From: Alphaproteobacteria bacterium
GTDB lineage: Bacteria; Pseudomonadota; Alphaproteobacteria; CACIAM-22H2
Length of the DNA stretch: 64,000 nt
Direction of reading: 5' to 3'
Assembly (NCBI GenBank): GCA_016793165.1
Contig: JAEULA010000031.1
Location: 1-64,000, forward strand
Shown: positions 1,643 to 5,089 of the stretch, piece after piece
Layout of the letters: each line of letters starts with the position of its first letter
How positions within the stretch are numbered: position 1 is the first letter of the stretch
The notes under the pieces: model-generated
What the model was told of the DNA's origin: nothing
What the model saw: only the letters and a program-made list of their open reading frames with translations
Databases searched by the model: none
Translations under genes and position numbers: made by a program

Positions 1643-2500
1643 GTGAACGCGCTCGGAACGGGTGCTGTCGTGGCGGGCGCTCCCGTTCATCGTGACGATC
1701 GCCACGGGCCGGACGCCTTCTGTAACCCGTACTTCAGGGCGCGTCAGGTCATGGTGGCTTCTCAACTCGAGGCAATCTTCGAGCTCCGATACCAAGTCTA
1801 TTGCGTCGAACGTGGATTTCTCGATCCCGCAGACTACCCGGACAGGCGCGAGCGCGACGGGTACGATGATCTATCGCTACACTACGGGCTCTACTCCCTC
1901 GACGACGAACTTGCCGGGACGATGCGGCTCGTTCGCGGCCGGCTTTCGCAGCTTCCGCTTGTCGAGCATTGCCCCCTAGCCGCCGACGCAGAGCGGTTGC
2001 TTGCTCCGCTCGGTCTGATCGGGGAAATCTCACGTCTGGCGGTCAGCCGCAATTTTCGCCGCCGTACCGGCGATGGCTTCTACAGCCTGCAGGTCGCTCC
2101 ACCGAGACAGACCTTGCCGCGCGGCGACATCTCCGCGACGCCGGAACGACGCGGAAGCGCCCCCTTCGTCCTGCACCTGTATCGCGAGGCCTATCAGGCG
2201 TGTCGCCGTTCGGGGATCAACTTCCTCCTTGCTGCCGTCGAGAGGCCGCTTGCGCGCCTTCTCAATGCGCTCGGCTTCACGTTCGAACAGATCGGCCCCG
2301 AGGTCGATTACTACGGTCCCGTCGCTCCCTTCATGCTTGATCTCGATCGATTTGATCGCCTGGTCGTTCGCCGCCGCGCCGGGCTCTTGAGATTTCTCGC
2401 CGAAGGGTTGGAGCCTTCGCTCTATCCACCCCCCCTTCGCCTGCTCGACGAGGCGCCAGAATGCACCAGCCAAGCTCACCCGTCTCAACCGCCCGCCTGA
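1643..2500 (+). CDS. PEP-CTERM/exosortase-associated GNAT-type N-acyltransferase
   Basis: Predicted 285-residue acyltransferase of the FeeM/N-acyl-amino-acid-synthase-like GNAT group that accompanies exosortase systems. The diagnostic core begins with RYQVYCVERGFLDP and continues through a GTMRLV segment, an EISRLAV strand and a C-terminal LYREAYQ...LLAAVERPLARLL block ending in a GPxVDYYGP motif. These enzymes are thought to move an acyl group from an acyl carrier onto an amine; the substrate here is unknown. I chose the GTG at 1643 because GAGGA lies six bases upstream; the frame stays open to 1529, and an ATG at 1751 is also possible. It overlaps the next gene by 40 bp, so the two are probably co-translated. 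No exosortase gene is visible in the window. Confidence 0.75.
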   Translation: MNALGTGAVVAGAPVHRDDRHGPDAFCNPYFRARQVMVASQLEAIFELRYQVYCVERGFLDPADYPDRRERDGYDDLSLHYGLYSLDDELAGTMRLVRGRLSQLPLVEHCPLAADAERLLAPLGLIGEISRLAVSRNFRRRTGDGFYSLQVAPPRQTLPRGDISATPERRGSAPFVLHLYREAYQACRRSGINFLLAAVERPLARLLNALGFTFEQIGPEVDYYGPVAPFMLDLDRFDRLVVRRRAGLLRFLAEGLEPSLYPPPLRLLDEAPECTSQAHPSQPPA

Positions 2501-3927
2501 AGTCGCTTGCGACGGAGGCGGACAAGGCCGAGCGCCGCGAAATTATTGCGGCGCTGGCCCGAACTTCGCCCGGCGATCTTCTGGCGGCGGCCGAGCACGG
2601 AGCGCTCGCAGCCTATGATCGCGCGATCGCGACAGTGCCGGCCTATCGTCGAATCGTCGCCGCGCACAACGAGGGCAGAACGCCAATCGTCGCCGACATC
2701 GAGGGCTTCCGCCGCGCTGCACCGCTGCTCGACAAGCACAACACGTTCGGCGCGTTCGACATCTCCTCCCTGTGTCTCGACGGTACGCTCGAGGGCGTGC
2801 GGTCGATCCTCACGAGTTCGGGACATTCCGGTGTGTTCTCCTTCGGCGTAAATACGGCCGAGAATCTGCAGCGCTCCGCGCGTTCGATCGACACCGGACT
2901 GCAATACCTATTCGGGGTCGATGAGCGAACGACATTGCTGATCAACGCGTTGCCGATGGGCGTGAAGGTCAATACCCGGGCCACGGTGCTGGCGGAGACC
3001 AGCGTCCGCGACGACATGGTCTATGCGCTGGTGAAAAAGTTCGGGCCCGAGTTTGACCAGATCGTGCTCGTCGCCGAGGGATCGTTCGCCAAGAAGATCG
3101 TCGAGGACGGTGCGGAGATCCATGGCATCGATTGGACCCGGCACCGAGTGCATATCGTGACAGGCGAAGAGGGCATCGCGGAGAACTACCGCGCTTACAT
3201 CGAGCGGCAGCTCGGGATCTCCGATCCCGACCGTGCGGATTCGCAGCTTGTCGCCTCGTCGATGGGCGTCGCCGAGCTCGATCTCAACATCTTCCATGAG
3301 ACGCGCGACACGATTCGCTTGCGCCGCGCAGCGCATCGTGACCTGGCCCTCCGTGAGGCATTGTTCGGTCCCGACACCCGGGCGTGCCCAATGTTCTTCA
3401 TCTACTACCCGCATCGGACGCTGGTGGAAGAACTCGCCGTGGCGGGCGGCACTGAATTGGTGATCTCGATGCTCAGCGAGGAGATGAAGATCCCGCTGCT
3501 CCGGTACCGGTCCGGCGACTTCGGCCGGATCCATGATCACGCCGCGGTCCGCGACGCTGCGCTGCGCTTCGGCTTGCCGGCGCCGCATTGGCAACTGCCG
3601 TTCGTCTGGGTGTCCGGTCGCGGCAAGACGCTGCGGTTGGCCGACGGGGACCTTTCGCCCGAGGCGGTGAAAGAGGCGATTTACAGCGATGACGGCGTCG
3701 CCAATGCCGTGACGGGAAACTTCCGGCTGTCATCTGGGCGCGACGGCAAGGCCGAACTGGACCTGCAACTTCGGCGAGACCGCGACTTGCCGCCCGCCGG
3801 CGCTGACAGGCTCGGCGCCGCCCTGGACGGGTTTTCCGATGTCCTCCCGAGGATCCGCTTCCATGCCTATGCGGAATTTCCGTGGGCGATGGAGGTCGAT
3901 TACGAGCGAAAGTTCCGCTACCTCTGA
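2461..3927 (+). CDS. PaaK/LuxE-like AMP-dependent acyl-activating enzyme
   Basis: 488-residue member of the adenylate-forming superfamily, related to phenylacetate-CoA ligase and LuxE-type acyl-protein synthetases. The phosphate loop is a variant, SSGHSG at residues 119-124, where relatives have TSGTTG. A clear YRSGDFGR motif (ribose-binding region) lies near residue 350. Members of this superfamily activate a carboxylic acid as an acyl-AMP and pass it to CoA, a carrier protein or an amine. The start ATG has GAGG seven bases upstream and lies inside the end of the acyltransferase gene, which suggests that the ligase supplies the activated acyl donor for that enzyme. This pairing is inference. 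The exact family and substrate are uncertain. Confidence 0.65.
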   Translation: MHQPSSPVSTARLKSLATEADKAERREIIAALARTSPGDLLAAAEHGALAAYDRAIATVPAYRRIVAAHNEGRTPIVADIEGFRRAAPLLDKHNTFGAFDISSLCLDGTLEGVRSILTSSGHSGVFSFGVNTAENLQRSARSIDTGLQYLFGVDERTTLLINALPMGVKVNTRATVLAETSVRDDMVYALVKKFGPEFDQIVLVAEGSFAKKIVEDGAEIHGIDWTRHRVHIVTGEEGIAENYRAYIERQLGISDPDRADSQLVASSMGVAELDLNIFHETRDTIRLRRAAHRDLALREALFGPDTRACPMFFIYYPHRTLVEELAVAGGTELVISMLSEEMKIPLLRYRSGDFGRIHDHAAVRDAALRFGLPAPHWQLPFVWVSGRGKTLRLADGDLSPEAVKEAIYSDDGVANAVTGNFRLSSGRDGKAELDLQLRRDRDLPPAGADRLGAALDGFSDVLPRIRFHAYAEFPWAMEVDYERKFRYL

Positions 3928-3983
3928 ATGCGCGGTTTTTGCCAACCTCCTAGTTTTGTTAACGAATTCCATGCGGCTTAGCC

Positions 3984-4001
3984 TGTAAGAGTTTTCTTAC
4001 A
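3984..4001. promoter_or_regulatory. Palindromic upstream element of the PEP-CTERM gene
   Basis: TGTAAGA and TCTTACA form a perfect 7-bp inverted repeat around a GTTT spacer. Its centre lies about 97 bp upstream of the transcription start predicted from the sigma-54 promoter at 4065-4078, a normal distance for an enhancer-binding activator. PEP-CTERM genes in several bacteria are controlled by the PrsK/PrsR pair with RpoN, and PrsR-type proteins were named after a conserved upstream PEP-CTERM box. That this palindrome is such a box is inference. Confidence 0.55.
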
Positions 4002-4064
4002 TTTCCTGGTTGCTCGCCGCTGCGGCAACGCAAAAGCCGAGAAGAATCAACGCGAGCGTGTGCC

Positions 4065-4078
4065 GGCACGGATCTTGC
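4065..4078 (+). promoter_or_regulatory. Sigma-54 (RpoN) promoter for the PEP-CTERM gene
   Basis: The sequence GGCACG-GATC-TTGC matches the -24/-12 consensus of RpoN promoters. GG is at 4065-4066 and GC at 4077-4078, with the required 10 bases between them. Transcription would start near 4090, giving a leader of about 50 bases before the ATG at 4139. No comparable match was noticed at the other promoters examined. Confidence 0.7.
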
Positions 4079-4138
4079 TCAATTAAGGGGGAAGGGCGAC
4101 TCCTCATCTGGGTTGTCCCGCTTCAGGAGTTAATGACG

Positions 4139-5032
4139 ATGCAGTACCTCGGTCGTTTCATTCGTGCGGGAGCACTTGGGGCCGTGTTGGCGCTGCCGTT
4201 GGCGCCGGCCGCAGATGCCGCCTTCTTCATCTACAACGCGTCGCCCGGCGATGCTTTTTCGCTGAAGTTCCAGGGCGTCACGACGGAGTTCGCCACGACC
4301 GCGCTTTCGAACGAGACGACGTGGGGATGGGGCTACGTCACGTCGATCGAGAACTCGTCGACCTTCGGCACGATCTGGCAGCAGGACAACGCCGCCTTCG
4401 GCAACGCCCGCCTCGGCTTCATGATCTACGGAATCGCCGACTTGAGCATCGTGCCCGGCGGCACTTTCGGTCAGCAGATTTACAATGTCGGCTGCACCGG
4501 CGGTTCCTGCGACGGCAAGATCCACATCGACTTCTACCTGGACAGCAGCACGGCGACCGGCGGGACCAATCCGGGGGCCACTGCCGGTGGCCTGACGACC
4601 GCCGATCGGACGGGGTTCGGTTCGTTGAACCAGATCACGACGGACGGCAGCTTGTTCATGAAGTGGGAACTGACCGCGGGGCACATCCTCGATAACCCGG
4701 ACACCGGGCTCATCGATGAGTCGGTGTCGACGCTGTTCCAGGACGTGTCGGCGGCGACATTGCCGGCACGTGGTCGCGGCTTCTTCTTCGCCGATTGCGT
4801 GGCCGGGCCGGGGTGCAACATTTTCGGCGACAGCGATCTGATCGATGAACTCGCCGGCCAGTTCACTTTGGCGCCGATCGTTTCGCCCGACCCGCGCTTC
4901 GCCAACGGCTGGCGCGGGGCGGTCAATGATCCGGTCGAAGGTTTCATCGCGGCCCCTGTCCCCGCAACAGTCGTCGTGTTCGGCACGGCCCTGATCTGCC
5001 TTGCGGGTCTGGGCAGGCGCGGTCGCGCCTGA
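4139..5032 (+). CDS. PEP-CTERM-type secreted protein (variant sorting signal)
   Basis: 297-residue exported protein. Residues 1-27 form a signal peptide with a likely cut after ADA. The last 26 residues form an exosortase sorting tail: a PVPAT motif, a hydrophobic segment, then the basic end RRGRA. The usual VPEP is replaced by VPAT. The middle part is beta-rich with a cysteine pair (GCTGGSC) and resembles no enzyme I know. Exosortase would cut the tail and anchor or release the protein at the cell surface. I chose the ATG at 4139 because AGGAG lies nine bases upstream; the ATG at 4133 is too close and the in-frame one at 4010 would precede the promoter. Expression is probably RpoN-dependent. 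Confidence 0.75.
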   Translation: MQYLGRFIRAGALGAVLALPLAPAADAAFFIYNASPGDAFSLKFQGVTTEFATTALSNETTWGWGYVTSIENSSTFGTIWQQDNAAFGNARLGFMIYGIADLSIVPGGTFGQQIYNVGCTGGSCDGKIHIDFYLDSSTATGGTNPGATAGGLTTADRTGFGSLNQITTDGSLFMKWELTAGHILDNPDTGLIDESVSTLFQDVSAATLPARGRGFFFADCVAGPGCNIFGDSDLIDELAGQFTLAPIVSPDPRFANGWRGAVNDPVEGFIAAPVPATVVVFGTALICLAGLGRRGRA

Positions 5033-5055
5033 GACGGTAATTCCGCGCGGAATCG

Positions 5056-5089
5056 AACAGGGGGCCTCTCGGCCCCCTGTTTCTTTTTG
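5056..5089 (+). terminator. Rho-independent terminator
   Basis: An 11-bp perfect stem (AACAGGGGGCC with GGCCCCCTGTT), a TCTC loop and a following TTCTTTTTG tract lie 24 bases after the PEP-CTERM stop codon. The T tract is on the plus strand only, so it serves that gene rather than the converging aldehyde dehydrogenase. Confidence 0.9.

Follow-up and report, generated by a model that had tools for sequence, protein, structure and literature searches.

The window analysed here comprises 64,000 nucleotides of an alphaproteobacterial genome of the CACIAM-22H2 lineage (assembly GCA_016793165.1, contig JAEULA010000031.1, positions 1 to 64,000), and close to its left end three plus-strand genes lie at 1643-2500, 2461-3927 and 4139-5032, positions that a previous, sequence-only reading had given and that we confirmed. 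The first gene encodes an N-acyltransferase of family TIGR03694 (FeeM-like, hereafter AT), with a GTG start in a frame that is open from 1529; the second encodes a 488-residue PaaK-type adenylate-forming ligase (hereafter LIG), as judged from a family profile, a structure model and invariant residues; and the third encodes a PEP-CTERM-like secreted protein. From the sequence, and if LIG starts at ATG 2461, AT and LIG overlap by 40 bp (2461-2500), as the sequence-only reading had proposed. However, homologues of LIG begin at the position of its residue 13, which is CTG 2497 here and overlaps the AT stop codon (TGA 2498-2500), so that the actual overlap could be just a few bases. The analysis below leads us to regard AT-LIG as a discrete branch of the N-acyl amino acid synthases associated with exosortases, one that is coupled to a ligase.

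AT was expected to be an exosortase-associated N-acyltransferase, and it passes the TIGR03694 cut-off with ease (173.9 bits for a cut-off of 112; Pfam FeeM, 41 bits). Among known structures, FeeM (2g0b, E 7e-9) matches the AT model (ACYLTRANSFERASE) best, followed by homoserine lactone synthases, including the coenzyme A (CoA)-dependent RpaI and BjaI; CoA-dependent homoserine lactone synthases are also among the best relatives when the AT profile is compared with PDB sequences. The catalytic set R49, E70, D72, D75, R95, E128 and R131 is retained in all or nearly all relatives, and PMC4897644 describes the essential glutamate. With the TIGR03694 synthases of Craig, Cherry and Brady (2011), AT shares a score above the cut-off, the catalytic residues, an adjacent PEP-CTERM-like gene and an exosortase A in the genome. 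In contrast to FeeM (PDB 2G0B), an N-acyl amino acid synthase that uses acyl-acyl carrier protein (acyl-ACP), AT comes with a ligase. RpaI and BjaI are, like AT, LuxI-type enzymes and are fed by acyl- or aryl-CoA (p-coumaroyl-CoA for RpaI), but their amine substrate is S-adenosylmethionine, a use for which there is no evidence in AT.

The identity of LIG was not apparent from single-sequence searches, where it reached no Pfam or NCBIfam cut-off and was left unnamed, its best matches being LuxE in Pfam (E=0.15) and PaaK in NCBIfam (E=0.004). It obtains 15.9 bits against the PaaK equivalogs (TIGR02155 and NF041878; 700 bits are required for NF041878) and 11.3 bits against LuxE (PF04443; gathering score 24.9). 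Among 33 LIG members, the best match to the NCBIfam PaaK models has an E-value of just 1.6e-11, with no member reaching a curated threshold, and the best match to LuxE has an E-value of 0.0015. A profile built from the 33 members matched phenylacetate-CoA ligase (PaaK) structures in the PDB at E 1.5e-10 and LuxE at E 0.018, and in Foldseek searches with the AlphaFold model (mean predicted local distance difference test score 90) the best matches were PaaK-type enzymes: 4r1m (E 8e-20), NatL2 (9e-19) and PaaK1 (1e-17). All 33 sequences, without exception, have SSG 119-121, E272, D353 and the C-terminal K484; by analogy with characterised enzymes, SSG 119-121 would form the P-loop, D353 would bind the ribose and K484 would be the C-terminal lysine of such ligases. 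On the profile and the predicted structure, LIG is a PaaK-type adenylate-forming ligase (ANL superfamily) of a family that has no curated model, which makes the PaaK/LuxE-like label of the sequence-only reading more precise.

PaaK1 (2Y27), BT_0428 (4R1L) and NatL2 (6SIX) share with LIG the fold, the P-loop (SSGHSG in LIG instead of SSGTTG), the RYRSGD motif and the C-terminal lysine, whereas LIG is ~15% identical to them in structural alignments and has a unique partner gene in AT. The LuxE acyl-protein synthetase (PF04443; PDB 7XC6) is also adenylate-forming and a distant relative, but the match of LIG to it is far weaker than to PaaK and below the Pfam cut-off, and we dropped the LuxE label in favour of PaaK on the profile and Foldseek matches; the recurrent neighbours of LIG included no conspicuous homologue of LuxC or LuxD. 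We also rejected the exosortase A-associated acyl-CoA ligase TIGR03098, which is AMP-forming like LIG and accompanies exosortase A clusters. The TIGR03098 model does not match the window LIG at E<=10 nor any of the 33 members at E<=0.01, and it coexists with LIG in 11 of the 21 genomes searched, indicating that it is a different enzyme; no TIGR03098 protein above the cut-off was found in the window genome. In Thiocapsa sp. KS1 (locus L060, 9821-11463), LIG is split into two overlapping frames by a frameshift or a sequencing error.

When 84,980 species genomes were scanned for LIG, 40 loci emerged, 41 with the window, mostly in Alpha-, Beta- and Gammaproteobacteria and in Omnitrophota, with one Bacteroidales metagenome-assembled genome (MAG) and one Acidobacteria fragment. 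AT is present in 36 of the 41: when distances are measured between stop-to-stop frames, it lies within 300 bp of LIG in 29 loci, within 1.5 kb in 35 and at 4.3 kb in one, with a median gap below 100 bp. The five loci without AT are four truncated contigs and the Bacteroidales MAG. AT lies either upstream or downstream of LIG and in either relative orientation, and this arrangement switched about eight times on a quick LIG tree while proximity was kept. The association also appeared in samples drawn independently of LIG: in a class-level sample, all three LIG-clade genomes carry TIGR03694 above the cut-off compared with 10 of 385 overall (p 1e-5), and in a phylum-level sample both LIG-clade genomes do, compared with 31 of 399. 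In another genus of Alphaproteobacteria, distant LIG homologues at ~30% identity lack an adjoining AT and branch outside, showing that linkage to AT is a property of the LIG clade. These distant relatives (loci L005-L008, L026 and L027), found near a large protein of ~1,175 residues, form a further uncurated PaaK-like subfamily. The linkage across other genomes, which the sequence-only reading had named as a test of its proposal, is thus observed in diverse phyla, and the maintained adjacency of AT and LIG across distant bacteria suggests a dedicated two-enzyme unit.

The phylogeny of AT mirrors the presence of the ligase. On a quick tree of 86 ATs with some long branches, 47 of 47 clade ATs from LIG loci (the nearest copy in 35 cases, a second copy in 11, and one from an AT-first sample) fall on one side of a branch of length 0.79 (SH-aLRT, an approximate likelihood-ratio support, 99). 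On the opposite side are all 37 ligase-less ATs and two extra Ectothiorhodospira ATs that lie ~7 kb from a pair. Residue 227 is a valine in all 47 clade ATs and an arginine in 38 of the 39 outside; other clade-specific residues are L60 (glutamate outside), Y184, A198 and a lysine or arginine that replaces P at 201. None of the TIGR03694 members sampled outside the clade has a ligase nearby. Most clade ATs were found through LIG; in a phylum sample that started from AT and gave 28 ATs besides that of the window, the sole clade member adjoins a ligase and the 27 ligase-less ones fall outside, a test with few positive cases behind it. In 11 loci (L036, L037, L039, L040, L053, L057, L061, L062, L065, L067 and L070) a second AT lies close to the pair, a hint that a single ligase might serve two transferases; the second ATs of Halieaceae form a distinct sister group.

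The third gene proved a looser partner. Its product has a signal peptide, a Pro-x-Pro motif, a hydrophobic transmembrane stretch and a C-terminal arginine cluster (GRRGRA; C-terminus PVPATVVVFGTALICLAGLGRRGRA), with PVPAT where VPEP is expected, so its sorting signal is degenerate. The PEP-CTERM assignment of the sequence-only reading is supported by the signal peptide, by the PEP-CTERM-like tail and by homology, but not by TIGR02595, which does not report the protein even at E<=10 in the window genome list. The homology is to a PEP-CTERM protein encoded beside AT-LIG in a second genome, G023 (40% identity over 271 columns), which itself scores above the TIGR02595 cut-off, and the family recurs in nine AT-LIG loci. 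Overall, PEP-CTERM genes of two recurrent families adjoin 18 of the 41 pairs. Upstream of the window gene, at 4064-4079 on the plus strand, lies a sigma-54 (-24/-12) promoter-like site, CGGCACGGATCTTGCT, with one mismatch to TGGCACGNNNNTTGCW, where 0.42 matches are expected per window. Sites with up to two mismatches within 200 bp upstream precede 18 of 24 PEP-CTERM genes in related loci; the figure is ~1.8% for random stretches, and a single case was seen among 48 ATs and another among 42 LIGs. Because these sites are specific to PEP-CTERM genes, the PEP-CTERM gene is probably transcribed apart from AT-LIG. Near-perfect sites precede PEP-CTERM genes in L032, L036, L053, L057, L064, L065, L067 and L070 besides the window; in L039, a site precedes the second AT. 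An intrinsic terminator on the plus strand at 5058-5088 (hairpin cagggggcc/ggccccctg, then a T run) closes the interval, and no convincing gene was seen upstream of AT, where the contig begins (1-1640).

The exosortase that the sequence-only reading required elsewhere in the genome is indeed present. A match to XrtA of 312.8 bits lies on a contig other than that of the window (C72, 81968-82744), with PrsT, an amidotransferase and a glycosyltransferase as neighbours, and the genome holds more than 70 PEP-CTERM signals above the cut-off, a count from a short model that also matches in control genomes. We considered a binning error as the source of this exosortase and rejected it: the tetranucleotide profiles of the two contigs are in agreement (0.84-0.86 in the parts of the window beyond 16 kb), which gives no sign of a foreign contig, with the contamination of the assembly listed as 7.8%. 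The assembly, with that listed contamination, measures 7.2 Mb when three congeners measure 2.8-4.6 Mb, and the tetranucleotide profile of its contig C110 deviates somewhat. In G023, the AT-LIG-PEP-CTERM trio is found inside the exosortase A cluster itself, between XrtA (with a glycosyltransferase and a deacetylase) and PrsT, PrsK and PrsR. Among loci with enough flanking sequence, a strong exosortase match accompanies 15 of 18 with a PEP-CTERM neighbour and 7 of 16 without (Fisher p 0.03). AT-LIG also occurs in genomes without a strong exosortase match, including those of Undibacterium pigrum and several Chromatiaceae (L031, which is U. pigrum, and L046, L048, L049, L050, L056 and L060), so PEP-CTERM sorting is probably not required for the pair to function. 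Altogether, AT and LIG are tightly associated, whereas the PEP-CTERM gene adjoins fewer than half of the pairs and has its own sigma-54 site, and the pair also occurs without exosortase A.

Other neighbours point to export. FtsX/MacB permeases and an ABC ATPase adjoin LIG in Omnitrophota, in a Rhodocyclales genome, in Halieaceae and in one other gammaproteobacterium, so that no fewer than three separate lineages have an exporter beside the pair. The Haliea and Rhodocyclales loci (L062 and L035) were confirmed to encode a LolA-like carrier (PF17131), with an AMIN/DUF1302 protein in Haliea. A Lol-type exporter beside the pair suggests a lipid-like surface product. Lol/MacB-type exporter genes were recorded at up to 8 kb from LIG in L035, L040, L053, L057, L061, L062, L065, L066, L067 and L070. 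In the window, the G+C content of the module is 0.63 for a genome at ~0.70, and the left contig end (1-5500) varies from 0.58 to 0.65 compared with ~0.70 for the rest; LIG was not found in the 22 other genomes of the family. Given this low G+C and this restricted occurrence, the module was probably acquired by transfer.

We propose, with a probability of roughly 0.55, that in this ligase-coupled synthase branch LIG activates an acid and AT transfers the acyl group to an amine to give a surface product. LIG would adenylate a carboxylic acid, either a fatty acid or, as in most PaaK relatives, an aryl acid, and would hand the activated acid to CoA or to a carrier protein; AT, as a FeeM/LuxI-type enzyme, would then shift the acyl group to the amine of an amino acid or of a similar compound. 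The product would probably be an amphiphilic N-acyl amine that arrives at the cell surface to serve the exopolysaccharide/PEP-CTERM matrix, in which the PEP-CTERM protein would be a matrix protein, switched separately by sigma-54 and no fixed part of the enzyme unit. In Methylomonas sp. LW13, disruption of a PEP-CTERM-system N-acyl amino acid synthase abolishes a polysaccharide band, which complementation restores (PMC11072679). That LIG makes the acyl donor for AT is the likeliest inference, from the close pairing, the AT substitutions that go with LIG and the CoA-dependent relatives of AT. Since N-acyl amino acid synthases take their acyl group from acyl-ACP (PMC8762209), a dedicated ligase suggests that the acyl group is not supplied by fatty acid synthesis. 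Some observations weigh against this proposal: a crude motif scan found no acyl carrier protein gene beside the pair, the AT branch of the window differs from ligase-less members at many otherwise fixed positions, and those ligase-less members evidently work without a ligase, so that LIG could act after AT.

This last order of events is possible, if rather doubtful: AT would form its product from ordinary acyl-ACP and LIG would adenylate the carboxylate of that product for transfer to an alcohol or an amine, such as that of an exopolysaccharide sugar, a lipid head group or a protein. N-acyl amino acids do carry a free carboxylate, relatives of AT within its family do without a ligase, and NatL2, a PaaK-type enzyme among the nearest folds to LIG, makes ester bonds directly from adenylates without CoA (PMC7204872). 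However, the substitutions of paired ATs at many fixed positions suggest that the transferase reaction itself has changed, and we found no acceptor-specific gene common to all loci. The pair could also make a diffusible N-acyl amine signal in the manner of LuxI, given the LuxI-like fold and invariant residues of AT and, in U. pigrum, a pair followed by a LytTR response regulator and a histidine kinase on the opposite strand; but such a regulator is not a general neighbour, and the exporter and polysaccharide context favours a bulk surface product, making a signal unlikely.

The sequence-only reading had also allowed that the pair modifies a protein, and here LIG would activate an acyl group that AT attaches, as an N-acylation, to the PEP-CTERM protein next door or to a different surface protein. 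PEP-CTERM genes of the two recurrent families do lie beside many pairs, and LuxE, the distant relative of LIG, acylates proteins. Yet the pair is kept in U. pigrum and several Chromatiaceae without a PEP-CTERM neighbour or exosortase A, sigma-54 controls the PEP-CTERM gene separately, and the fold of AT is that of small-molecule synthases; this looser partnership makes protein modification less likely than small-molecule synthesis, and we hold it to be very doubtful. Finally, the low G+C of the module and the lack of LIG in related genomes would fit chance neighbours or a co-inherited mobile block with no common pathway, which is scarcely credible because proximity is kept through repeated rearrangement and because the AT clade is split by the presence of the ligase.

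The link between this synthase family and PEP-CTERM/exosortase systems has been known since 2011 (Craig, Cherry and Brady, 2011, via PMC4897644 and PMC7293339), and so only the dedicated ligase appears undescribed; in a literature of partial coverage, we found this link but no paired PaaK- or LuxE-type ligase. The finding delimits a discrete synthase branch that has an activating enzyme of its own, shows fixed residue switches and is accompanied in several lineages by a lipid-type exporter; it also brings an uncurated ligase family to light. As a far-fetched extension of our proposal, the pair might make an N-acyl amine lipid that the Lol-type exporter carries to the outer membrane, there to act as acceptor (membrane anchor) for PEP-CTERM proteins joined by the exosortase; if this were true, such a lipid would be the anchor that the exosortase system still lacks in AT-LIG lineages. 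More generally, the finding bears on what N-acyl amino acid synthases do in bacteria with exosortases: through the ligase, the acid used can be approached directly, and genomes with the pair but without exosortase A let the two functions be told apart.

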